Shown here: positions 1,857 through 17,402 of the stretch, in pieces
Position numbering within the stretch: the first letter of the stretch is position 1
How the letters are laid out: each line of letters opens with the position of its first letter
Virus record (IMG/VR): IMGVR_UViG_3300031758_000557
Location: 1-24,331 of that record
Length of the DNA: 24,331 bases
Reading direction: 5' to 3' (one strand)
Origin: a virus
Notes under the pieces: model-generated
Seen by the model: the letters and a program-made list of their open reading frames with translations, nothing else
What the model was told of the DNA's origin: nothing
Database searches by the model: none
Made by a program: the position numbers and the translations under genes

Positions 1857-2381
1857 CTATGGCTCCAGAATGAAGGCTGCGATGTGCCGCCCCGTCCCCT
1901 TGCCCTTGGATCCGTCCTCGGTTGCGTGCCACCTAACGTCGCCAAGGTTTCGCACCTTCGCTGCCCCGCAGGCGGCAAGCATCATCAGAACCCACTTGTC
2001 CACCGGGTACACCACCACCGACAACTTGCCCTTCCGCTGCTCCTCAATCGCCTTTCGCATCCATGCCGTTGGCCCCTTCTTGCGGCCGTTGTGGATGATG
2101 GATCCGAATGGCGGGTTGACGTAGTTGCTGCTCCCCCACTCGCAAGTAAGTCCGTCGAATCCAGGTGGCACAGGGTACGGGCATGGGTCAAAGTCGAAAT
2201 GAAACTCGGCGTCCAGTTCGGCGTATAGCTCTGGTGGCGTCAGCCAGTAGTGTTTGCCGTCGTCTCCGTTGCCGACGTGGAACTTGTTGAGGTGAGGCGG
2301 GAGCGTGCTCTGGTGCGCCGCCGTAGAACCAAGCGATGGAGCAGACGGCGGGAATGGAGTCCAAAGTGATAGCTGCGTCAT
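1857..2381 (-). CDS. phage N6-adenine DNA methyltransferase (Dam-like, 174 aa)
   Basis: The landmarks are YWLTPPELYAELDAEFHFDFDPCPYP (45-69) and NYVNPPFG (86-93), where NPPF is the catalytic motif of adenine methyltransferases; these match the phage Dam-like family. It should methylate adenine in phage DNA, protecting it from restriction or marking replication. It begins MTQLSLWTPF; QLSLW closely resembles the sliding-clamp-binding motif QLSLF, and this phage encodes a clamp. An in-frame ATG at 2399 six codons upstream is an alternative start. Confidence 0.8.
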   Translation of the reverse strand: MTQLSLWTPFPPSAPSLGSTAAHQSTLPPHLNKFHVGNGDDGKHYWLTPPELYAELDAEFHFDFDPCPYPVPPGFDGLTCEWGSSNYVNPPFGSIIHNGRKKGPTAWMRKAIEEQRKGKLSVVVYPVDKWVLMMLAACGAAKVRNLGDVRWHATEDGSKGKGTGRHIAAFILEP

Positions 2382-2415
2382 GTGTCCGCCGCTGCTCATC
2401 GCCAGCGTTCTGTGG

Positions 2416-2634
2416 CTACTTGCCGTCCGTTGGCGGGGCCGGGAGCGGCATCCAGTGGGTCGGCGGGTCTATCGGTTCTGGGTAGCAGAACCAACCCGCT
2501 TCACGATCAATGCCGCCTCCGCTGCTGGCGTCGTGCCATTGGCACTCGAAGACCGGGTCGCCCGGACGCCACCCGAGGACCGACGTGCCATCTTGCGGCA
2601 GTCGTTCGCCCACCGAAATCCATTTGCTTTCCAT
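2416..2634 (-). CDS. DUF551-like protein, copy 1 (72 aa)
   Basis: It opens MESKWISVGERLPQDGTSVLGW and closes THWMPLPAPPTDGK, the two signatures of DUF551 proteins (WIxVxERLP at the start, HWMPLPxPP at the end). The function of the family is unknown; members are common in phages and integrated elements. Two more copies lie at 1249-1557 and 1024-1221. The start at 2634 has a weak RBS; a TTG at 2691 overlapping the methyltransferase is less likely. The codons for the HWMPLP end lie in a 22-nt stretch (2441-2462) identical to 1274-1295. Confidence 0.75.
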   Translation of the reverse strand: MESKWISVGERLPQDGTSVLGWRPGDPVFECQWHDASSGGGIDREAGWFCYPEPIDPPTHWMPLPAPPTDGK

Positions 2635-2662
2635 GCCCGCACTTTCGCTCGGTAACGCCTCT

Positions 2663-3271
2663 TCACACCGCCGACAGTAGCGGAGTCTCAATGTACGCGC
2701 CCCACTGGTCGGCCATCGCCGCTGCGATCCCTTCGTAGGTCTTGCTTCTGATCTTCCAGCGGTCGGGCGACGGGGCCAGTTTGTTCTGCCCGCTCGCGGT
2801 CTGGTTCTCCCAGCGATCCCGGTGCTCCAGCACGTTCGTCGCCCGCAGATGAGGCAAGCCCTTTAGCCAGAGACAGGTAGCCTTCGACTCTGGGTGGCCG
2901 AACTGCCAAGGCTGGATGGTCTGGTCGGGCTTCCGCCAGAGCGATGACATGATGCAGACCGGGTTTTCTATGGCAATGTGCGGTATATCGGCCTTTGCTA
3001 GCCGCATGAAAAACGACACGCTCGCCTGCTGCCTGCCGTCCATTCGCTTCGCTTGGAAGTGCCTCGCCCCGCTTACGGACAGGTCGGTGCATGGCGGGTG
3101 GGCGATCATCAAGTCCCACGGGTAGTCCAGAACATCGCGGACATCGCCTTGGTAGTGCGGGCCGGGCGTCTCGGTCGGCAGAAGGTCGCATGACATCGCC
3201 TCATGCCCGAGAGCCAAGAAGGCGTCCCGCACGGCACCACTGTACTCACAAGCGATCAGCACCCTTGCCAT
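2663..3271 (-). CDS. DNA cytosine methyltransferase-like protein (202 aa)
   Basis: The sequence ARVLIACEYSGAVRDAFLALGHEAMSCDLLPTETPG is the SAM-binding start of a phage family of small C5-cytosine-methyltransferase-like enzymes. Next comes DLMIAHPPCTDLSVSG with the catalytic PPC (59-61), the ENP motif (102-104), and the typical WQFGHPESKATCLWLKGLPHL. The full target-recognition domain of large C5 enzymes is missing; members are about this short. It probably modifies phage DNA to evade restriction, though substrates are not proved. Its ATG is predicted to be leaderless. A second, adenine-type methyltransferase lies downstream. Confidence 0.75.
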   Translation of the reverse strand: MARVLIACEYSGAVRDAFLALGHEAMSCDLLPTETPGPHYQGDVRDVLDYPWDLMIAHPPCTDLSVSGARHFQAKRMDGRQQASVSFFMRLAKADIPHIAIENPVCIMSSLWRKPDQTIQPWQFGHPESKATCLWLKGLPHLRATNVLEHRDRWENQTASGQNKLAPSPDRWKIRSKTYEGIAAAMADQWGAYIETPLLSAV

Positions 3272-3277
3272 GACCGC

Positions 3278-3305
3278 AGATTACCGAGCGTGGCAACTGG
3301 GTCAA
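3278..3305 (-). promoter_or_regulatory. promoter predicting a leaderless mRNA (gene at 3271)
   Basis: A -35 box TTGACC (3300-3305), 16-bp spacer and -10 box TAATCT (3278-3283). The -10 box is 6 nt before the ATG at 3271. The -35 region and 15 nt around it (3299-3313) are identical to the promoter at 4540-4567, and both genes begin with the same GCGGTC-ATG context. Confidence 0.65.
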
Positions 3306-3337
3306 CGCTCGTTCAGAAGCGCGACCGCACCTGATTT

Positions 3338-3568
3338 CTATCGTTTGGTCCGCTCCAGAAGCGCCCGCAGCGCTGACGAAATACGCAGGCACTCGTCCTT
3401 GTCTGGTGGACGATGATGGCCGATTGCACTCAGTTCTGAGTCGGCAGCGACAATCGCTTCCAGTTCCGCGTCGGTGAGCGTGAGCCGATGGCTCCAAGAA
3501 TCAACGGTTTGTAACGACCCGTCCTCGTTCACTCCGATGATCGGCCGTGCTGGCGTCCACTTGTCCAT
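3338..3568 (-). CDS. small hypothetical protein (76 aa)
   Basis: This unknown protein begins MDKWTPARPIIGVNEDGSLQTVDSWSHRLTLTDAELEAIVAADSEL and ends in a helix (DECLRISSALRALLERTKR). It shows the LTLTDAELEAI pattern of small phage regulatory or accessory proteins, with no enzyme motif. The start at 3568 is supported by GAGGG about 6 nt upstream; an earlier ATG would overlap the preceding gene. The next gene is separated by 66 bp that hold the leaderless-type promoter. Confidence 0.6.
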   Translation of the reverse strand: MDKWTPARPIIGVNEDGSLQTVDSWSHRLTLTDAELEAIVAADSELSAIGHHRPPDKDECLRISSALRALLERTKR

Positions 3569-3600
3569 CGCGTCCCTCTCTGATTTCAGTAGCGCAATTG

Positions 3601-3936
3601 CTAAAAGTCGCCGCCGCATGACCCAGAATCAAAACTGCTTCCTGAGTCATACGAGCCACTGTCGTAACTGCTGCCTCCAGAATCGTATGAACTAGAGTCA
3701 TACGACCCAGCCCCAGAATCTACCTCCGGCGTCTGGTGGCAGTGGTGGTCTTCCGATGTGTTCATCATGTCGCCAAGCATCCCTCCAGCGAGGTTGCCGC
3801 CAAGCAATCCGCCTACAAGTCCGTCGTTCGTGGCGTAGCCGAGGGCAACAGACTGCACAAAACCATCGTCAGACGATGCAGGCACGGCAGTGACGATTGC
3901 GTGCTTCGGCTTCTTTTTTCTGAGCCAGCCAAACAT
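3601..3936 (-). CDS. small protein with a Tyr/Asp/Ser/Gly repeat tail (111 aa)
   Basis: The N-terminus MFGWLRKKKPKHAIVTAVPASSDDG is basic, the middle (NDGLVGGLLGGNLAGGMLGDMM) is a Gly/Leu-rich hydrophobic stretch like a glycine-zipper, and the last 40 residues repeat SYDSG/SSYDSG/FDSG units ending in CGGDF. The repeated tail should be disordered. Proteins with similar tails exist in phages and bacteria, but their function is unknown to me; membrane association through the glycine-zipper is an inference. It has a strong RBS (AAAGGAG) and a long regulated leader with a promoter, operator and terminator. Confidence 0.65.
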   Translation of the reverse strand: MFGWLRKKKPKHAIVTAVPASSDDGFVQSVALGYATNDGLVGGLLGGNLAGGMLGDMMNTSEDHHCHQTPEVDSGAGSYDSSSYDSGGSSYDSGSYDSGSSFDSGSCGGDF

Positions 3937-4004
3937 GGAAACTCCTTTGGTTTCGTAGATAAGAAACGTCTTTACCTGCGGCGTGTAGTGTCAGGTTCCT
4001 TCGC

Positions 4005-4037
4005 AAAAAAACTGCCGGATCATACGTGCAATCCGAC
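4005..4037 (-). terminator. intrinsic terminator in the leader
   Basis: On the minus strand GTCGGAT (4031-4037) pairs with ATCCGGC (4014-4020), seven pairs with one G-T, around a 10-nt loop, followed by AG and seven T (4005-4011). It lies downstream of the promoter at 4072-4099, so that promoter would yield a short RNA of roughly 60 nt unless readthrough occurs. It may also stop transcripts from the genes further right. Confidence 0.65.
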
Positions 4038-4056
4038 GAGATTCGTTGCATTTTGC

Positions 4057-5987: not shown

Positions 5988-6248
5988 TCAGTTCTGGTCG
6001 CGCCCAGCGTCGGTGCCGGTCGCGGTCATCTTCGGCTGTAGGGCGTACAGGAGCTTCGTCTGCTCCGTGATCGCCTTGGCAATCTCTCGCTGCGTCTCCC
6101 GCAGTTCCTTCACCGTTGTACGGTGTTCGTCAAGCAACGGGATCAACAGGTCGGTGCGGATGAACCACGCCAGAAACACGGCGACCAGTGACGGGAAGCC
6201 GTACTTCGAGAGCAGCTCGAACATGGTGTCTTTGGCGGCGTCGGTCAT
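5988..6248 (-). CDS. holin-like membrane protein (86 aa)
   Basis: A single hydrophobic segment FPSLVAVFLAWFIRTDLLIPLL (18-39) follows a short N-terminus, and then a charged coiled region (EHRTTVKELRETQREIAKAITEQTKLLYALQ) runs to the end. This is the common layout of small phage holin-like proteins with one N-terminal helix and a cytoplasmic coiled tail. It is coupled by ATGA to the gene before. Together with 6903-7901 it forms the most likely lysis cassette of this phage. Confidence 0.65.
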   Translation of the reverse strand: MTDAAKDTMFELLSKYGFPSLVAVFLAWFIRTDLLIPLLDEHRTTVKELRETQREIAKAITEQTKLLYALQPKMTATGTDAGRDQN

Positions 6249-6607
6249 TTCGTTAGCTCATGTTGCATCACTGTCAGTAGCGCCCGATGTGACAGTCGCT
6301 CCAACCACCACTTCACGAGCCACTGTACTACTGCGACCGCAACGGCTTGCAGCAGGAACACCCAGATGAACCCGTACTCGCCAGGCTCCTGTCCGCTCAT
6401 GGCCTGATGCTCACGCTTCACCGCAGTAAGCAGGGCATGCACGTAAACGTCACGCTGCTGGTTGTCGCGGCAGGCCGTGAGGTAGTCGCCAGACCAGTTG
6501 GCGACCGACAACTGCACGAGGTCGTTCACGGCGGCTCGGCCCACGAGCCTCTTGCGGATCGGCGGCAGGGCGGCCCAGCATGCTGACTGGAGGTCGGCGA
6601 GCGTCAT
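6245..6607 (-). CDS. small membrane protein (120 aa)
   Basis: The first 85 residues are soluble (MTLADLQSACWAALPPIRKRLVGRAAVNDLVQL...), then EYGFIWVFLLQAVAVAVVQWLVKWWLERL forms one membrane segment near residues 82-110, followed by a basic end. It is coupled by ATGA overlap to the upstream and downstream genes. A C-terminal anchor of this kind fits a phage lysis or envelope protein, but no family is recognised. Confidence 0.6.
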   Translation of the reverse strand: MTLADLQSACWAALPPIRKRLVGRAAVNDLVQLSVANWSGDYLTACRDNQQRDVYVHALLTAVKREHQAMSGQEPGEYGFIWVFLLQAVAVAVVQWLVKWWLERLSHRALLTVMQHELTK

Positions 6608-6906
6608 GGCCGGCACTTTCCATCTGGGCAGGGCTGAGCCGCCTTCGGCTTTTTGCAGACGCAGGTCGGCGGGCATGGGCACGGCGTGCGGTGGCCGTCG
6701 CCATGCGTGATGTATCCCGTGCCTTTGCATTGCGTGCAGCACTCGCCCGGCTTCGGTGCAGGCTCGGGGGCGGGCGGCAACTGCCGCATCCGCACAACCT
6801 CCCGAGCCACCTCACACGCTAGGTCGGCGGTCAACGAATCATCGGCGGGCAGGCTGGCGACGCAGCCCACGAACGCCACCGTCAGAACGATCAGCCACCG
6901 AGTCAC
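6604..6906 (-). CDS. Cys-rich exported or lipid-anchored protein (100 aa)
   Basis: It starts with GTG overlapping the peptidase stop (GTGA). The N-terminus MTRWLIVLTVAFVGCVASLPA is a signal sequence with a lipobox-like FVGC at 12-15. After a Pro-rich stretch (LPPAPEPAPKPG) comes CTQCKGTGYITHGDGHRTPCPCPPTCVCKKP, a CxxCxGxG motif as in DnaJ zinc ribbons, with further Cys pairs. It may bind zinc or form disulfides at the cell envelope. Spanin-like proteins are also short Pro-rich lipoproteins, but the Cys-rich tail is not typical of them. Confidence 0.6.
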   Translation of the reverse strand: MTRWLIVLTVAFVGCVASLPADDSLTADLACEVAREVVRMRQLPPAPEPAPKPGECCTQCKGTGYITHGDGHRTPCPCPPTCVCKKPKAAQPCPDGKCRP

Positions 6907-7901
6907 AGGATGCCTCCAGTCCAATCGGGCAACTGCTTGGCAGGCCATCCGTTGACGCCAGAGAACGCGATGGCGTATCGGCCTTTGCAGTCCGACCATC
7001 TCGACCAGAACGCCCCATGCGGGATCTCAAGCTGCGTGCCAAGGACCGACCGGCCACCGCTGTTCCACTTTCCCCAACTGTTTTGGATCAGCACCAGCGG
7101 TTCGCCGTAGGCCCGCTTGATTTCGTCGCGGTCATCGACGCCAAGGTAGGCGAGAGCGTGAGCCCAGCCCTGCGAAGTGCGGCGGCTGACGCCGTTGGAA
7201 TCCCTTGTCTCTGACCACGATTCGCCACCACACGAAGAGATGCAGTAGCCGTTCGCCAAAAGGTCTCGCACTTCCTCGAACGTCCTGGCCCTGGTCGCCG
7301 TTCGCACGAGATGCTCAGCCCCGATCTTGCGAATCTCGGCCCCCGGCTTGGACGCTCCCCACTTACCAGCCAGCTTGCCGTCGTACCGCGTGAGGTCGAT
7401 GCCGAGTTGTTCGTACCGCTTGCGGAGCCACAGGCCTGACTCTTTCAACACCACTTCGGCGGCGTGGTCGCAGCTCCACCCGTCCCCACCGTGCGAGCGA
7501 AACCAGTAGATCGCTTCACACGAGAGCACGCCGTCTCGGCGGGCCTCGTCGCTGATGTCTGGGGCACCCTCACGCAGGCCCGTCACCTCGTCAGGCTGGC
7601 CAGCGGCGATCTCGCAGGCGAGCGTGCCTAGGCAGGCGTTCCGCGTCGAGTGAGCCACACAGTCGCCACGGGTCTGAGCCGACGCGGGCAGCGAGCCGGG
7701 GAAGACTTGCTCGATCACGGCCCACGGAGCCGACAGCTTGCCAGCCCCGGAGCCGACGAGCCCGTAGCGGCGACAGGTCGTGCCGCCGTCCGGTGCCTGT
7801 CCTTGCTGGAGAAGGTACTGCGTCAGCCTCTCAGACGCGGCAGGATCGGCGTATACGCCGACCAGCCCACGCAGATACTCCTCCTGAGGGTTCCACGGCA
7901 T
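6903..7901 (-). CDS. papain-type (C1A-like) cysteine peptidase (332 aa)
   Basis: Papain-like features are the nucleophile Cys81 in TRGDCVAHST, His248 in QGWAHALAYLGVDD, and Asn274 in LVLIQNSWGKWNSGG; NSWG is the classic papain motif. Gln77, four residues before the Cys, may serve the oxyanion role, though papain has it six residues before. The order Cys-His-Asn and length fit the C1A family. No signal peptide is seen, so export would need a holin or another route. RBS GAGGG lies 7 nt upstream of the ATG at 7901. It sits between membrane-protein genes and overlaps the next by GTGA. Roles as a lytic protease or a virion-maturation peptidase are inferences. Confidence 0.75.
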   Translation of the reverse strand: MPWNPQEEYLRGLVGVYADPAASERLTQYLLQQGQAPDGGTTCRRYGLVGSGAGKLSAPWAVIEQVFPGSLPASAQTRGDCVAHSTRNACLGTLACEIAAGQPDEVTGLREGAPDISDEARRDGVLSCEAIYWFRSHGGDGWSCDHAAEVVLKESGLWLRKRYEQLGIDLTRYDGKLAGKWGASKPGAEIRKIGAEHLVRTATRARTFEEVRDLLANGYCISSCGGESWSETRDSNGVSRRTSQGWAHALAYLGVDDRDEIKRAYGEPLVLIQNSWGKWNSGGRSVLGTQLEIPHGAFWSRWSDCKGRYAIAFSGVNGWPAKQLPDWTGGIL

Positions 7902-7905
7902 GGGG

Positions 7906-8517
7906 TCACCCTCGCGGCGGCAGGGCCGCCCAGGCGATGGCGCGGCACAGTTCGGCAAATTCCTTCCGCAGTTCCGGCGTCACCGTCACCACGTCCTTGC
8001 CGATCACGTTGGCAAACGCGGCCTCGGTCGCCTCCCGCAGCCCGGCGTACTTGCCCGGCTGGTTGCCACCGATCCGACGCCAGCCAATGTCGAGAGCCAG
8101 AACGACGAACGCCCGCAGCGAGCGAGTGTCGGTGAAGACCACCTCGCCCACGATGGCATCGCCGCCGACCACGACCGCCGCCTTCGTCCACAACTGCGCC
8201 CAAAGCATGCGGTCTGACATAGGGGCAGAGGCGAACGCATCTGCCACCGGCTTCACTTTCAACTGCATCGCATCACTCGGCGTCTCGACCTTCACCGACT
8301 GCACCACGCCCGGCAACGCCAGCGACGGCATCGGCACCTTGCCCCACGCCGCCGCGACAATCAGAGCGGCTGCTGCAATCCGTGCGAGGAGTCCGGCTTT
8401 TTCTTTGCCGGCTTCCAACGCACGGTGCGCGAGGGCTTGGATTTGTGCCCGGTAGGGAGCAAGCAATAGAGCCGCCGCAGCAAGTACGGCAGCGGCACGA
8501 AGCGAAGAGTCATTCAC
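7906..8517 (-). CDS. membrane protein with two helices (203 aa)
   Basis: The GTG start overlaps the upstream stop. Residues 7-19 (AAAVLAAAALLLA) and about 43-56 (ARIAAAALIVAAAWG) are two hydrophobic segments separated by a basic helical loop, after which a soluble domain of about 140 residues continues (SLALPGVVQSVKVETPSDAMQLKVKPV..., ending AFAELCRAIAWAALPPRG). Two short segments with little between suggest a hairpin in the membrane, as in some holins, but the large soluble part is atypical. It directly precedes the papain-like peptidase gene by 4 bp. Confidence 0.6.
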   Translation of the reverse strand: MNDSSLRAAAVLAAAALLLAPYRAQIQALAHRALEAGKEKAGLLARIAAAALIVAAAWGKVPMPSLALPGVVQSVKVETPSDAMQLKVKPVADAFASAPMSDRMLWAQLWTKAAVVVGGDAIVGEVVFTDTRSLRAFVVLALDIGWRRIGGNQPGKYAGLREATEAAFANVIGKDVVTVTPELRKEFAELCRAIAWAALPPRG

Positions 8518-8819
8518 CGACGCATCCCTTCGATCTTGTCCACGGCCCACCTGACCAGCTGCTCGCCCTCTTTGGTTTTGAGCAGGGCCGCGACGTGCTT
8601 TACCAACTCGTCGTCCAGGCCGCTGTCGGTCTTGCTTGCCAGCCATTCGCACGCTTCTCCAACCACAACCGCCTTGGCATACGGATCAAACGCCGAGAGG
8701 TAGCGCTGCCCGAACGTCAGGAGCGGGGCGAAAGAATTCAGCAGCGCGAGCTTCTCCCAAATGGTGAGGTTCGCACCGTACTGCCCGACTTCCTCGGGCG
8801 TCATTTCAAAAGCGGGCAT
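8514..8819 (-). CDS. hypothetical helical protein (101 aa)
   Basis: This unknown, helix-rich protein begins MPAFEMTPEEVGQYGANLTIWEKLALLNSFAPLLTFGQRYLSAF and continues with GEACEWLASKTDSGLDDELVKHVAALLKTKEGEQLVRWAVDKIEG. It is soluble, with no signal peptide. Strong RBS GGAGG about 10 nt upstream. Its stop overlaps the GTG start of the next gene by 4 bp (GTGA), placing it at the head of the membrane-protein/peptidase cassette. Confidence 0.6.
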   Translation of the reverse strand: MPAFEMTPEEVGQYGANLTIWEKLALLNSFAPLLTFGQRYLSAFDPYAKAVVVGEACEWLASKTDSGLDDELVKHVAALLKTKEGEQLVRWAVDKIEGMRR

Positions 8820-10278: not shown

Positions 10279-10307
10279 TTTATACCCCCTCACTAGGCGG
10301 ATCACAA
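10279..10307 (-). promoter_or_regulatory. promoter of the free-standing HNH gene
   Basis: A -35 box TTGTGA (10302-10307), 17-bp spacer and -10 box TATAAA (10279-10284) lie on the minus strand, inside the last codons of the glycosyltransferase. The expected start is near 10272, so the mRNA begins almost exactly at the hairpin 10242-10270. Confidence 0.55.
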
Positions 10308-11230
10308 CTGTGCATCCATCGCATAAACGTCCTTTGCGATGGGTTCACGAACATTCGCTTCCCTGTCTTTTTGGCGATAGCGCGATGCGCCGAAGTGTGT
10401 TCGCAGTCCGATGAGCCGTCGTACTCCGCGTGCAGGTAATCCTCTGTCCTGTAGATGCAGAGTCCGCCGAACGCGCTGGCGACCACGACTGGAGATGATC
10501 CGACAGGCGGAAGCCAGTTGTGTTTCCAGCCTCCTTCTCCTCGCGTGTAGTCGTCAAAATAAACATCTGGCTGACCAATCCCCCTGGCTGCCCAGCAGTC
10601 GTAGTGAAGCCAGGAGCGGCTCACCACGGGATGGCCGCGATCGTCTTGCTTTAGCGATGGATGCTCGAGCAGCGACACGCTGGCCATTCCGAACGCACCC
10701 TGTAAATCAACCATCCAGCCGATGCCGTTTAGCACGCCGTCATGCCACCAACCGCCCCAGGCGTCGAAGTCCACCGCCATCACGTAGTCGCAGTCGGCGG
10801 CGTTTTCCCGCACCCATCGCTGGCACGCCGTGCGGTACTCCGCAAGCTGCACCGTTCGACGCCCGCCGAACTCGCCGCTGTAGCTCTCTCGCCCGAGACG
10901 CTGTGAAGCGAACGTCGCCTGCCGATACTCTGAGGCGAAGTCGGCGAGCACCTGCACTGTGTCGTCGGCCGAGTCGTTTTCCTCAATGTGCAGCCGCCAC
11001 GACTCACACTCGCCGGCTATCCGCAGCACGCGAGACAGGTTGCCGGCGAGGGCCGATGCACAGTCGCGGGCCAGCCCGACGAAGCACACCTTGGCATGCC
11101 GCAGCCGGTAGCGGCCAAGCTGCACCTGGGCTGCGTAGTCTGCCGCGAACTCCGGCAGCGGCAGCACCAGATGCTCATGCACCTGCGGCGCGGGAGGCAA
11201 GATCGCGGATCGTTCCAAGCCTGTCGGCAT
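10280..11230 (-). CDS. glycosyltransferase, GT69-like (316 aa)
   Basis: The middle resembles the fungal cap-type alpha-mannosyltransferases and related GT-A enzymes: VCFVGLARDCASALAGNLSRVL (48-69), HIEENDSADDTVQVL (81-95), and CDYVMAVDFDAWGG with the DXD-like DFD (154-156). The C-terminal VVASAFGGLCIYRTEDYL and DCEHTSAHRAIAKK support the same fold. The first 40 residues are atypical, and a GTG at 11182 that would remove the first 16 residues is a possible start with an 8-bp overlap. It ends next to the promoter of the HNH gene, which lies inside its last codons. Confidence 0.7.
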   Translation of the reverse strand: MPTGLERSAILPPAPQVHEHLVLPLPEFAADYAAQVQLGRYRLRHAKVCFVGLARDCASALAGNLSRVLRIAGECESWRLHIEENDSADDTVQVLADFASEYRQATFASQRLGRESYSGEFGGRRTVQLAEYRTACQRWVRENAADCDYVMAVDFDAWGGWWHDGVLNGIGWMVDLQGAFGMASVSLLEHPSLKQDDRGHPVVSRSWLHYDCWAARGIGQPDVYFDDYTRGEGGWKHNWLPPVGSSPVVVASAFGGLCIYRTEDYLHAEYDGSSDCEHTSAHRAIAKKTGKRMFVNPSQRTFMRWMHSCDPPSEGV

Positions 11231-11810
11231 ATTGGGTCACGTGCATGAAGTAAGGACTGTCGCACTTGCGTCGGTCTGCTGGGTGATGGTTCCACTCAGG
11301 CCCGAGAAACGTTGTGCGGTGATAGAGCGTGGTCGGTGTGTCAAGCCGGCCGACCGGCCCCGGCTCTACCGCGTAGCCCATCAGCCGCATGATGGCGGCC
11401 TGCTCCCACCACGGGTGATGCGGGAACTCTGCCCCAATGTTCCACGCCTTGAGCAGCACGTCTTGCATAGCCTGCGTCACGGCCCACACGCCGCAGTTCG
11501 GGACGCGCCCGCACTCGGTGTGATGTTCAACAAGAGCGTGATCCGTATCGGGCCTCAACTCTACGAACACATCATGCCACGGCTGGATGATCACAACATC
11601 GGCATCGAGCCAGAGTACGCGGTCAAAATAGCCGAGCATGCCATGAACAACAGGTAACTTGCTCCACGACGCAGGCCGTTGGCTCTGCAACTCAAACGAC
11701 CGAAACTCACAGCCGTGTCGCTCCGCATACTTCGCCATGAGCGGAGCCGTGATCTCGCTCATCTGCCGATGCTCGTCGCCGCTCCATCCTGTGACGATGC
11801 ACGCTTTCAC
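11175..11810 (-). CDS. glycosyltransferase with a DXD motif (211 aa)
   Basis: The sequence starts KACIVTGWSGDEHRQMSEITAPLMAKYAERHGCEF, resembling galactosyl/mannosyltransferases of the GT34 (GMA12/MNN10) or GT8 type. The core FDRVLWLDADVVIIQPWHDVF contains the metal-binding DAD (69-71). Further on are VPNCGVWAVTQAMQDVLLKAWN, which reads as the acceptor-side NxG motif, and HHPWWEQAAIMRLMGY. It should transfer a sugar from a nucleotide-sugar. The overlap with the methyltransferase (ATGA) and with the next glycosyltransferase (56 bp) marks one operon. The acceptor could be a virion protein, host surface glycan or modified DNA base; nothing in the sequence decides. Confidence 0.75.
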   Translation of the reverse strand: MKACIVTGWSGDEHRQMSEITAPLMAKYAERHGCEFRSFELQSQRPASWSKLPVVHGMLGYFDRVLWLDADVVIIQPWHDVFVELRPDTDHALVEHHTECGRVPNCGVWAVTQAMQDVLLKAWNIGAEFPHHPWWEQAAIMRLMGYAVEPGPVGRLDTPTTLYHRTTFLGPEWNHHPADRRKCDSPYFMHVTQYADRLGTIRDLASRAAGA

Positions 11811-13543: not shown

Positions 13544-14689
13544 TCAATCCTTCGCCAGCGGCATCACGATGCAGCGGCAGTCCTGTGCTCGCAGCACGAC
13601 CGCCGACTGCTCGTTCTCGGCCTCGATCTCAATCGTCTCCTCGTCATCGAACGACCCGCAGCCGAGCCACTCCGTGACGAACCGCGGGTCGAGGCTCACG
13701 CTGCACGTGTCGCCCGACTCGACCAGATCACACGTGCATGACGCCTCGCCGGCCTCGGCAGAACAGCTCGTCAGATGCAGCCCCTCGCCCGTGAAGGCAA
13801 ACGTCACGCCCTTCGACTGCTCCGAGGTGCAGATCGCGGCCTGCCGGCACGCCGCACGCAGCGCCCCGACCACAGCCGACGACGGCTTCACCGTCCGCGT
13901 CGGCTCTACGTCACGCCAGTTCGGGAACCGGCCATCGACTAGCACCGCCCGGATCGTCGTGCCGCCGATCTCGGCCACGATCATCCGGTCACTTGCGTCG
14001 ATCTGGATGCGGTCATCCGATCCCGCCAGCCGGCACAGCACATCGACCACCCGTCGCGGCACAATCGGGGCTCGCCGCTGCCCGTTCTTCGGCTCACGCA
14101 CGAAGTCATCGGTGGACACGTCCACCTCGCACTCAGCCACGCACATCCGCCGGCCATCGGTGCCGATAAGCGACAGCATGCCCTTGTAGAACTCGATCAG
14201 CACACCACCGAGGGCGTAGCGGCTGCTCTCGTTATCCGTGGCGAAACGGACGGAATTCATCAGCGTGACGAACTGGTCACCCGGCAGATGTACCATCGGC
14301 TTCGCGTCCACCTCGCCGGCTGCCGGGAACTCCCGAGCGTCTTCGACAGGCAGTCGCCACTGGCCACGGCCCGAGCGGACGATGCACGACGTGCCGTCCG
14401 CCAGTAGTTCCACGGTGTCGCCCTGGTCGAGCGACCCGACGATCTTGGTCAGCCGCTCATGCGGCAGTAGCAGATCCGGCCCGTCATAGCAGTCGAGAGG
14501 CGTCGTGATCCGCAGTTCGAGGTCCGTGCCCGTCAGCGTCTCGCCGGAGAGCAAAACGTTCGACAGGATCGGCTTCGGGCTGCGGGCCTGAACAGCCGGG
14601 GCCACGGCGTGCAGCGCACGCTTGAGGTCTGCCACCGACACGCTCGTGCCGGTCACACGCTTCTTTCGTTCCTTCGTTGCTGTCGTCAT
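13544..14689 (-). CDS. dnaN: DNA polymerase III beta subunit (sliding clamp)
   Basis: At 381 aa it is close to the normal clamp length (E. coli 366). It starts with a basic extension (MTTATKERKKRVTGTS), then SVADLKRALHAVAPAVQARSPKPILSNVLLSGETLTGTDLELRITTPLD, the typical first domain. The second domain shows SVRFATDNESSRYALGGVLIEF and TDGRRMCVAECEV; the third shows DGRFPNWRDVEPTRTVKP and ends in CRCIVMPLAKD, matching the family's VMPM-type end. It should form the ring that tethers polymerase to DNA. Phages that carry a clamp usually use it for the host polymerase III. AAAGGA lies upstream. No polymerase or clamp loader is seen in the window. Confidence 0.93.
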   Translation of the reverse strand: MTTATKERKKRVTGTSVSVADLKRALHAVAPAVQARSPKPILSNVLLSGETLTGTDLELRITTPLDCYDGPDLLLPHERLTKIVGSLDQGDTVELLADGTSCIVRSGRGQWRLPVEDAREFPAAGEVDAKPMVHLPGDQFVTLMNSVRFATDNESSRYALGGVLIEFYKGMLSLIGTDGRRMCVAECEVDVSTDDFVREPKNGQRRAPIVPRRVVDVLCRLAGSDDRIQIDASDRMIVAEIGGTTIRAVLVDGRFPNWRDVEPTRTVKPSSAVVGALRAACRQAAICTSEQSKGVTFAFTGEGLHLTSCSAEAGEASCTCDLVESGDTCSVSLDPRFVTEWLGCGSFDDEETIEIEAENEQSAVVLRAQDCRCIVMPLAKD

Positions 14690-14801
14690 TGCGAGATTCC
14701 TTTCTCAACTGGAGTGAAACACCTACCGCCACCCCGAGTGCGAACGTGCACGCGAGGAGAAGTTCGCCAATCGCCACCATCACGAAGTCACTGATGGTCA
14801 T
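14484..14801 (-). CDS. possible small membrane protein overlapping dnaN
   Basis: An ORF starts with an ATGA overlap to the upstream gene. Its first 37 residues (MTISDFVMVAIGELLLACTFALGVAVGVSLQLRKES) form a convincing single membrane helix. From there to its stop, 206 bp, it runs inside dnaN in another frame, and that part (105 aa total) has the composition of a shadow. Either a real short membrane protein carries an accidental long tail, or a frameshift or sequencing error hides an earlier stop. The coupling and hydrophobic start favour a real gene; the overlap argues against. Confidence 0.35.
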   Translation of the reverse strand: MTISDFVMVAIGELLLACTFALGVAVGVSLQLRKESRNDDSNEGTKEACDRHERVGGRPQACAARRGPGCSGPQPEADPVERFALRRDADGHGPRTADHDASRLL

Positions 14802-15031
14802 GCCGCACCGCCTTTCTGTTCGCCGTAGCAGACCCGACGAAGCAAGTCGCGCTCCGCTTCCGCCACCTCCACCGCCGACGCCAGCGTCACGCAGCGGTCG
14901 GCGGTCTTGTCGATGGCCTTCGCCGCCAGGAGCAAGACGATGGCGGTCATGTTCACCGTGTGCTCGTCGCGGGCAGCCGCCCGGCACTGCTCCGCGATGT
15001 CGCGGAGGCTGAGGGGTTCAAGGCCGCTCAT
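14798..15031 (-). CDS. small helical hypothetical protein (77 aa)
   Basis: This unknown protein begins MSGLEPLSLRDIAEQCRAAARDEHTVN and continues with helices (AIVLLLAAKAIDKTADRCVTLASAVEVAEAERDLLRRV). It has a hydrophobic stretch but no clear membrane segment. It is coupled by ATGA overlaps to the LexA-like gene upstream and to a possible membrane-protein ORF downstream. No catalytic motif can be seen. Composition matches its neighbours. Confidence 0.6.
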   Translation of the reverse strand: MSGLEPLSLRDIAEQCRAAARDEHTVNMTAIVLLLAAKAIDKTADRCVTLASAVEVAEAERDLLRRVCYGEQKGGAA

Positions 15032-15800: not shown

Positions 15801-16600
15801 AGGTTCCCTCCTGCTGGCTGACGTTCTCGGTGCTTCCGTGCATCATGCTTGGGGTGGTCAAACTCCCCAGCCAAGATCTTGTCTACGAACTCAAAGAACT
15901 TCGTGACCGCCAACGGCTTCTCGAAGAACTGGCACCGTGGCAATCGCTCCATTGCCAGCCGTGCGCGATCCAGCCAACCTGGCGTAGCGGCGTAGTCCAC
16001 CCACGCCGAAGGGGCGATGAGAGGCTCCCAGCGGGCCGCCCGATCCGTGACGTTCCAGAGGGGCACAAACTCAGCCCATGCCTCTGCTGCCCAGCCAGGA
16101 CGGCGAAACTCGTTTCCGCTGTGTGTGTGTGTGTTTTCTAAGGGAGAAGGGTTAAGGGAATGGGGAGAGGGGAGAAGGGAGAAGGCCCGGCTAGTTCCGG
16201 AATTTCCGTGACCGGCCGCGGAAGTTCCGTGACTAGTCATGGAATTTCCGTGACTTTGCGTTTCGCCCGTGTTTTGTGGGGGTTCTGGCAGTCCCTCAGA
16301 CGTTTCCTTTGGGTGCGGGTTCTGGTGCTTGGCGAACCCGTTCACTTGAACGAACGTCCTGCCGTCAACGGTGTACAGCTGGACAAAGCCGCGGGCCGCA
16401 AGCTGCTCCATTAGGCCAGCCACATCGCAGTTGTCGTATGGCAACAGCTGCGCCTTGATCTTGGCGTGGCGGCACTCCATGCGGCCGTCGCGGTCAACGA
16501 GCGTCCAGAGGCCAGCGAACAGCAGGCGGGCCAGCGGGTCGCACTCGGCCAGCATGTCATTAGAGAAAAAGCCGGGCTTAAGAAGGCGTGTCCGTGCCAT
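15797..16600 (-). CDS. putative phage replication initiator (267 aa)
   Basis: The N-terminal 95 residues (ARTRLLKPGFFSNDMLAECDPLARLLFAGLWTLVDRDGR, then KIKAQLLPYD and a VDGRTFVQVNGFAKHQNPHP end) match the winged-helix N-terminal domain of phage replication proteins (replisome organizer type). Such proteins bind the phage origin and recruit helicase. A low-complexity linker follows (SHGNSMTSHGTSAAGHGNSGTS), an obvious short repeat of [S/G]HGNS-like units. The C-terminal third (from PGWAAEAWAEFVPLWN) is a separate helical domain. GAAGGAG lies 6 nt before the ATG. It overlaps the downstream gene by 4 bp. A phage origin may lie within or near this gene, but no iterons were seen. Confidence 0.7.
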   Translation of the reverse strand: MARTRLLKPGFFSNDMLAECDPLARLLFAGLWTLVDRDGRMECRHAKIKAQLLPYDNCDVAGLMEQLAARGFVQLYTVDGRTFVQVNGFAKHQNPHPKETSEGLPEPPQNTGETQSHGNSMTSHGTSAAGHGNSGTSRAFSLLPSPHSLNPSPLENTHTHSGNEFRRPGWAAEAWAEFVPLWNVTDRAARWEPLIAPSAWVDYAATPGWLDRARLAMERLPRCQFFEKPLAVTKFFEFVDKILAGEFDHPKHDARKHRERQPAGGNL

Positions 16601-17402
16601 CCGTGGCTCCTTCAGTTTGCGGTGGTCCGGAGTTGATCTCGTCGAGCACCTGGCTTTGAAACTGCGTCCATGACGTGACTCGCTTAGCGAGCCACTCCAG
16701 CCACTCAATGCTGACGCCGACGGCCTTGGCGTCCTCTAGCAATTGCATGCATCGCCAATCGTTCAGGTAGCGGCATCGGTTCCGAAGGATGCCGCGGATG
16801 TAAAAGAGCTTTGCAGCGCCAGGGTTCTTTTCATCAGCCTTTCGGACGGCCACTACGCGGCCGATCTTCCAGAACCACTCATTCGTGACGCCATCGCGAT
16901 CATCCTCGACGCGTGATGACTGCATCGCCCTGTCGGCTGCTTCGTGTATCGCGCTACAGATAGCGTCAAACCCGTGGCGTTTGATTAGCTTTCTGATTTC
17001 GTCACGCGCGGATGGAGTCCATGTGCAGCCCGCTTGGCCGATTGACTCAAACCAAAGCGACTGGGCCAGATCGACGGCCTGGTCATTGAGGTCAACGAGC
17101 GACATATGCCACTGATGCAGCATTTCCAGTTGCTGCCGTCGCTCTTCAAGGTCTTCTAGTTGCGACCGCCGCTTTTCAATCGCGGACGAATCCGAGAGTC
17201 GCTTATCCGACTTGCCAGCGTTGCACGCGCGGCAGGCTGTCGCGAGGTTCAGCAAGTCATTGGTGCCACCTGCCGCGACGGGCGTGATGTGGTCAATCTC
17301 TAGCACCACGTCAGGGGCCTTGCCGCCACAGTATTGGCACGTGAATGAGTCTCGCTTAAAGACCTCGAACCTCACCGACTTCCGAATTGCTTCTCTTTCC
17401 AT
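16578..17402 (-). CDS. HNH endonuclease with a long C-terminal extension (274 aa)
   Basis: Residues 10-65 are an HNH domain: Cys22/Cys25 in CQYCG, EIDHITPVAAGG (35-46) with catalytic His38, and CRACN (57-61). A coiled segment (EKRRSQLEDLEERRQQLEMLHQW) leads to about 170 helical residues containing WTPSARDEIRKLIKRHGFDAI and VRKADEKNPGAAKLFYIRGILRNRC. This extension resembles the C-terminal domain of some phage replication or DnaD-like proteins, so a replication-linked nuclease is possible. An RBS (AAAGGAAAG) precedes the ATG. Its 3' end overlaps the next gene's start by 23 bp. Confidence 0.75.
   Translation of the reverse strand: MEREAIRKSVRFEVFKRDSFTCQYCGGKAPDVVLEIDHITPVAAGGTNDLLNLATACRACNAGKSDKRLSDSSAIEKRRSQLEDLEERRQQLEMLHQWHMSLVDLNDQAVDLAQSLWFESIGQAGCTWTPSARDEIRKLIKRHGFDAICSAIHEAADRAMQSSRVEDDRDGVTNEWFWKIGRVVAVRKADEKNPGAAKLFYIRGILRNRCRYLNDWRCMQLLEDAKAVGVSIEWLEWLAKRVTSWTQFQSQVLDEINSGPPQTEGATDGTDTPS

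Follow-up and report, generated by a model that had tools for sequence, protein, structure and literature searches.

A translationally coupled cassette around a predicted cysteine peptidase

The stretch of DNA analysed here, referred to as the window, is the whole 24,331-nt IMG/VR record IMGVR_UViG_3300031758_000557, and the coordinates of the cassette are counted within it. The minus strand of the window carries, at positions 5988-8517, a translationally coupled cassette in which a predicted cysteine peptidase is embedded amongst membrane proteins; the cassette reaches to 8819 when its conserved first gene is included (Table 1). The first two genes (8819-8514 and 8517-7906) overlap by GTGA, and the stop of the second, which encodes a membrane protein termed fam1, is followed after a 4-bp gap by the start of the peptidase gene at 7901. 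The peptidase gene in turn overlaps by GTGA with the gene for a lipoprotein-like protein (GTG at 6906), and ATGA overlaps at 6607/6604 and 6248/6245 connect the remaining genes. The initial annotation, made from the sequence alone, had spoken of four overlapping genes at 5988-8517; every part that it named lies in this interval on the minus strand, while the count has to be corrected to five, or to six with the gene at 8514-8819.

Table 1. Genes of the cassette and catalytic codons of the peptidase, in window coordinates.
Feature	Position	Strand	Basis or conservation
101-aa conserved cassette protein with EWLASKT motif	8514..8819	-	phrog_402 (unknown function), E 7e-4
fam1 membrane protein: soluble domain preceded by two hydrophobic stretches at the N-terminus; starts with GTG	7906..8517	-	hydropathy, conserved neighbour
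Predicted papain-fold (C1-type) cysteine peptidase, 332 aa from ATG at 7901, without signal sequence; proposed endolysin	6903..7901	-	
Catalytic Cys81 codon	7659..7661	-	kept in 59/60 relatives
Catalytic His248 codon	7158..7160	-	kept in 60/60 relatives
Catalytic Asn274 (NSWG) codon	7080..7082	-	Asn in 55/60, Gln in 4/60
Cys-rich lipoprotein-like protein, DnaJ-type CxxCxGTG...GDG motif, GTG start	6604..6906	-	hydrophobic N-terminus and FVGC
120-aa membrane protein, one transmembrane helix (score 2.28)	6245..6607	-	ATGA overlaps with neighbours
86-aa membrane protein, one transmembrane helix and coiled-coil-like tail; holin-like by appearance	5988..6248	-	

Some details of the membrane proteins differ from the initial description. 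The two-helix protein fam1 is present, with residues 41-59 alone passing the hydropathy threshold and the first hydrophobic stretch called by eye; it may be holin-like or act as a tether. The lipoprotein-like protein is indeed Cys-rich and hydrophobic at its N-terminus, but its lipobox (FVGC) is imperfect. The last two proteins of the cassette, described before as membrane or holin-like, have one transmembrane helix each; no recognised holin or spanin family was found in the cassette, the 86-aa protein alone giving a holin match (phrog_4898) at a sub-threshold E-value of 0.24. The small membrane proteins are named here as putative holins.

The phage of the window, P1, is also contained in a 73-kb IMG/VR record (G001), where a 47.5-kb unit corresponding to P1 is flanked by a 1.4-kb repeat with copies 99.4% identical (G001 15914-17320 and 63467-64873; approximately 2640-4046 in the window). 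The window represents the joint that would close P1 into a circle. The remainder of the 73-kb record appears to be another phage, P2, and the record seems to join the two phages at the repeat. Because P1 and P2 both share the repeat, its layout is consistent with a complete circular P1 genome but is not proof of it.

The peptidase is predicted to be a papain-fold C1-type enzyme

Structure comparison settled the fold of the peptidase, since sequence searches gave little. The window peptidase had no match in Pfam, Pfam Peptidase_C1 (PF00112) matched 7 of 24 relatives weakly (best E 0.0039), and a phmmer search of the peptidase against the PDB gave no match, while a PDB profile search returned weak cathepsin matches. 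Named phages, searched by tblastn, contained no match to the window peptidase or to the copy on contig G342:C2 described below. An AlphaFold2 model, the structure prediction that the initial annotation had proposed as a check, reached a pTM of 0.86, and Foldseek returned 59 PDB matches at E<=0.001, the top ones all being C1 peptidases. The best matches were xylellain (3.7e-7), the Clostridioides difficile S-layer-associated protease Cwp84 (4.9e-6) and cathepsins; in the viral structure library BFVD they were 'Peptidase_C1' proteins of uncultured Caudovirales phages. Judged by its modelled structure, the protein is a papain-fold, clan CA, C1-type cysteine peptidase with predicted proteolytic activity.

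The catalytic residues named at the outset (Cys81, His248 and Asn274 within NSWG) are found as described. Their conservation was counted over 60 relatives, that is, copies covering the sites, with prophages included and some copies near-identical. Gln76, likely the oxyanion-hole glutamine, is kept in 59 of these 60, and Gln, Cys and His are invariant in the alignment A1. Relatives of the peptidase occur on 41 viral contigs with identities of 29-100%, and ten pairwise dN/dS values range from 0.02 to 0.17. The retention of the catalytic residues together with these dN/dS values argues that the pattern is not due to chance. One relative of 537 aa (L042 866-2479) has lost the catalytic cysteine, in a single copy; it is possibly inactive and in another role.

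Relatives are enriched in Planctomycetota and in part lie in a lysis-type position

A profile search with the peptidase found it in 13 of 392 genomes of Planctomycetota, the phylum of the Pirellulaceae seed, 12 of them besides the seed G020; in the control phylum, 1 of 396 genomes was found, namely the seed Flavobacteriales metagenome-assembled genome (MAG) only. The peptidase is enriched in Planctomycetota and, as far as its distribution among these genomes indicates, is a planctomycete-phage gene, which agrees with the host guessed initially. The MAG assignments of phage contigs to Lokiarchaeota, SAR202 and Flavobacteriales were not taken as a guide to the host, given how unreliable the binning of phage contigs is. 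SBP_bac_10/DUF1559 pilin-like proteins are a planctomycete hallmark. The marine relative G012 has a Pfam match to SBP_bac_10/DUF1559; it encodes a pilin-like gene five genes upstream of its peptidase (2132-3214, L058), which from its sequence is the likely source of the match.

In seven planctomycete prophages or phages (G342:C2, G215, G394, G360, G142, G354 and G398) the peptidase gene precedes the terminase by a few genes and is adjoined by holin-like or lipoprotein genes; several of these terminases were named by eye, with Pfam Terminase_6N matching in two. This placement upstream of the terminase is a lambda-like lysis position. One of them, G342:C2, is a separate extrachromosomal contig of 37,010 bp beside a 5.4-Mb chromosome, on which the order is holin-like/lipoprotein, peptidase, small secreted protein, HNH, small terminase, large terminase, portal, capsid, tail and integrase. 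The earlier proposal of a protease in the position of the endolysin is supported, at the level of sequence, by these prophage copies.

The relatives also differ in their likely localisation. A strong N-terminal hydrophobic anchor precedes the catalytic domain in 7 of 14 prophage copies (G360, G142, G354, G304, G394, G342:C2 and G342:C1), and a weak one is present in the G215 copy. The strong anchor most likely places the catalytic domain of these copies outside the cytoplasm. The viral copies are without a signal, and would therefore need help in crossing the membrane, as classical endolysins do.

Gene position bears as well on the idea of a virion-associated or entry protease, which would be packaged or carried on the tail and cut the host surface layer at infection, or would mature virion proteins. 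The cassettes of G342:C1 and G304 lie between head and tail genes, and an S-layer protease, Cwp84, is amongst the best fold matches, both of which fit such a role. The translational coupling with small membrane proteins, the N-terminal membrane anchors in relatives and the lack of virion domains speak against it. Maturation in particular is argued against by a separate Peptidase_S78 head protease in P1; the window peptidase sits away from the P1 portal and capsid genes, and a head-maturation function is considered unlikely. We regard a virion or entry function as very unlikely.

An accessory envelope system, be it for superinfection exclusion, for remodelling of the infected cell or as a domesticated bacterial module, with lysis left to an unrecognised enzyme elsewhere, appears least probable of all. 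Such a system would suit two copies that stand alone among host genes with a fam1-like lipoprotein and small membrane genes (G173:C1 at about 873,550-875,900 and G382:C1 at about 1,728,100-1,729,900), which are either prophage remnants or domesticated lysis modules, and endolysin detection covers known families only. Against it stand the retention of the cassette from 37-kb temperate phages to phages of about 200 kb, the lysis position kept in the seven prophages and phages listed above, and the absence of a candidate endolysin among the proteins scanned.

Companion proteins include further proteases and thioredoxin

Of 32 loci, 28 contain a relative of fam1, which in 27 precedes the peptidase gene by no more than two genes; in some prophages (G410, G173) the fam1 counterpart is a lipoprotein. 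The DnaJ-type Cys-rich protein (fam3) is present in 16 loci. Around this core the cassettes add other enzymes: a protein with PG_binding_1 (1.3e-10) and Matrixin (1.1e-17) in the large-phage group, a subtilase (Peptidase_S8, 3.5e-48) in a Pirellulaceae MAG, a Trypsin_2 domain carried by the Cys-rich protein in P2-type phages (to 1.7e-21), and a thioredoxin domain (1.4e-10) carried by the Cys-rich protein of locus L065. Thioredoxin-like proteins also occur within the planctomycete prophage set. Two genes of the large phage G002, at 43767-44543 (L049) and 50417-50746, are the likely sources of a separate trypsin match and of a thioredoxin match, respectively, in that genome.

The P2-type phages have a matching cassette with a second family of papain-like genes (55 viral loci; L043:6-752, L112-L166), in which the papain-like gene is followed by the gene for the Cys-rich protein with a clear Trypsin_2 domain; relatives of the 101-aa protein were also seen in these cassettes by inspection. 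The model of the P2-type protein is of lower confidence (pTM 0.69) and gave no significant PDB fold match, and its profile match to the window family is marginal (E 0.0014, probability 17). The papain-like nature of the P2-type gene is suggestive only.

No known endolysin family passes the cut-off

The initial annotation had seen no amidase, lysozyme or CHAP enzyme in the window, and the same holds more widely: no known endolysin family exceeds its curated cut-off in any of 19 viral records. Amidase_2, Phage_lysozyme, SLT and Peptidase_M15_4 had no match in these records, and the matches to CHAP (one) and M23 (four) at E<=0.001 all stayed below the cut-off. Pfam tables, complete down to the thresholds used, contained no lytic family among 116 proteins of P1, G342:C2, G410 and G342:C1, nor among 96 proteins of G142, G394, G215, G398, G354 and G304; the prophage and phage scans set aside obvious structural genes, named by eye, and the 96-protein scan also proteins of at least 480 aa. 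For P1, the scans of all proteins and against PHROGs had no lytic family among the best 25. Several library scans refer to the best 25 families only, behind which weak matches may be hidden, and for the 205-kb genome the all-Pfam scan covered the first half. The combination that the initial annotation had set against a lysis role, a standard endolysin elsewhere in the genome with the peptidase in virions or processing head proteins, was not seen at the level of sequence. The M23 stretches (G002 11090-11251, G004 69801-69962, G006 26755-26913 and G015 14655-14885) possibly belong to virion-associated wall enzymes.

These results have to be weighed together with the possibility that the peptidase is itself a peptidoglycan-cutting endolysin, derived from C1 enzymes and cleaving stem-peptide cross-links as do CHAP and NlpC/P60 of the same superfamily. 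Lysins of the papain superfamily are known (CHAP, Amidase_5; PMC10318531), cysteine-protease domains occur in mycobacteriophage lysins such as LysA (PMC3314691), planctomycetes possess peptidoglycan (PMC4432640), one companion protein has a peptidoglycan-binding domain, and the gene position is of the lysis type. Those known enzymes share with the window peptidase the use of a papain-superfamily cysteine enzyme for lysis, but they cut peptidoglycan, whereas in the window enzyme the arrangement is that of C1 (NSWG), no wall-binding domain is present and the fold fits the protein-cutting C1 enzymes rather than CHAP or NlpC. Moreover, the companion enzymes comprise thioredoxin and three further kinds of protease, and one planctomycete, Planctopirus limnophila, can do without peptidoglycan synthesis, its mur genes being non-essential (PMC10632474). 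A peptidoglycan-cutting enzyme is in our estimate an unlikely explanation.

A proposed lysis system directed at a protein wall

The explanation that we consider probable is that the cassette serves a planctomycete phage for lysis, with a C1-type protease that attacks the protein wall as its endolysin. The case goes beyond the mere presence of an unusual protease because four features coincide: the lysis-type gene position, the anchors that would place the enzyme outside the cytoplasm, the accompanying proteases and the lack of a recognised endolysin. Late in infection, the holin-like membrane proteins of the cassette would make openings in the inner membrane; in sister phages, the N-terminal anchor would export the enzyme instead. 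By either route the peptidase would enter the periplasm. There, assisted by the membrane-tethered Cys-rich partner, which elsewhere carries trypsin or thioredoxin, it would digest the Cys-rich protein part of the wall until the cell bursts. That the peptidase causes lysis and that wall protein is its substrate are both inferred from gene content and context.

What is reported of the host envelope is compatible with this proposal. The planctomycete wall was suggested to be mainly protein (PMC8567305), and the Cys-rich YTV protein, restricted to Planctomycetia, was suggested to affect wall rigidity (PMC10632474). Proteases in combination with a disulfide-reducing partner would suit a Cys-rich protein wall. 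It is a tentative but serious possibility that the cassettes embody a distinct lysis principle, in which a papain-type protease and partner proteases digest a load-bearing Cys-rich protein wall, some phages in addition reducing its disulfides with thioredoxin, and no dedicated peptidoglycan hydrolase takes part.

Several observations weigh against a lysis enzyme of this kind. Protein digestion alone may not suffice, because peptidoglycan is present in planctomycetes, whose cells are disrupted by lysozyme (PMC4432640). No second protease in a cassette role was detected in P1. In several phages the cassette separates the head genes from the tail genes or is remote from the terminase, and the holin assignments are based on hydropathy only. 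The large-phage group has the sub-threshold M23 matches, which fall within long reading frames (629-1470 aa), and a peptidoglycan hydrolase new to Pfam would be missed by the endolysin searches.

Endolysins are understood as peptidoglycan hydrolases, and a protease in that role would, if true, widen the definition. It would also make the debate on what holds planctomycete cells together directly testable, offer a marker by which planctomycete phages could be recognised in genomes, and supply candidate enzymes to open planctomycete cells in the laboratory.

Comparison with known lysis systems and C1 peptidases

Phages commonly encode holin, endolysin and spanins in one cassette, as in the S-R-Rz/Rz1 type of lambda. 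The cassette described here resembles this type in grouping a single enzyme with small membrane proteins and a lipoprotein-like protein, upstream of the terminase in the seven planctomycete phages and prophages. It differs in that the enzyme is a predicted papain-fold protease, not a peptidoglycan hydrolase, and that the membrane proteins are not recognised as holins or spanins by sequence. In signal-anchor (SAR) endolysins an N-terminal membrane anchor precedes the catalytic domain, an arrangement predicted likewise for half of the 14 prophage copies, although the fold differs and the copy in the window has no anchor.

Xylellain and Cwp84 share the papain fold and the catalytic residues with the window peptidase but are cellular enzymes of approximately 16% identity, outside any phage cassette. 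The BFVD 'Peptidase_C1' proteins of Caudovirales have the same fold, are phage-encoded and carry this annotation publicly already; they are 14-18% identical, and neither function nor cassette context is described there. By role alone, a likeness can be drawn to the pseudomurein endoisopeptidases PeiW and PeiP, which as peptidases serve as lysis enzymes for a non-standard wall, but these are enzymes of archaeal viruses acting on pseudomurein (PMC12596118). The main text of the same survey of viral lytic proteins mentions neither papain nor planctomycetes (PMC12596118). Our literature search, with subscription journals and preprints outside its reach, returned no description of a C1 protease acting as lysis enzyme.

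Neighbouring genes in the window

Directly downstream of the cassette, the protein encoded at 5072-5956 matches phrog_17104 (3.8e-12, unknown function). Two glycosyltransferase-like genes are located just upstream of the cassette (10280-11810), with a weak Pfam match for the first gene only. Farther upstream, at 13544-14689, the phage encodes a DNA polymerase III beta clamp, which was matched within the P1 protein set.

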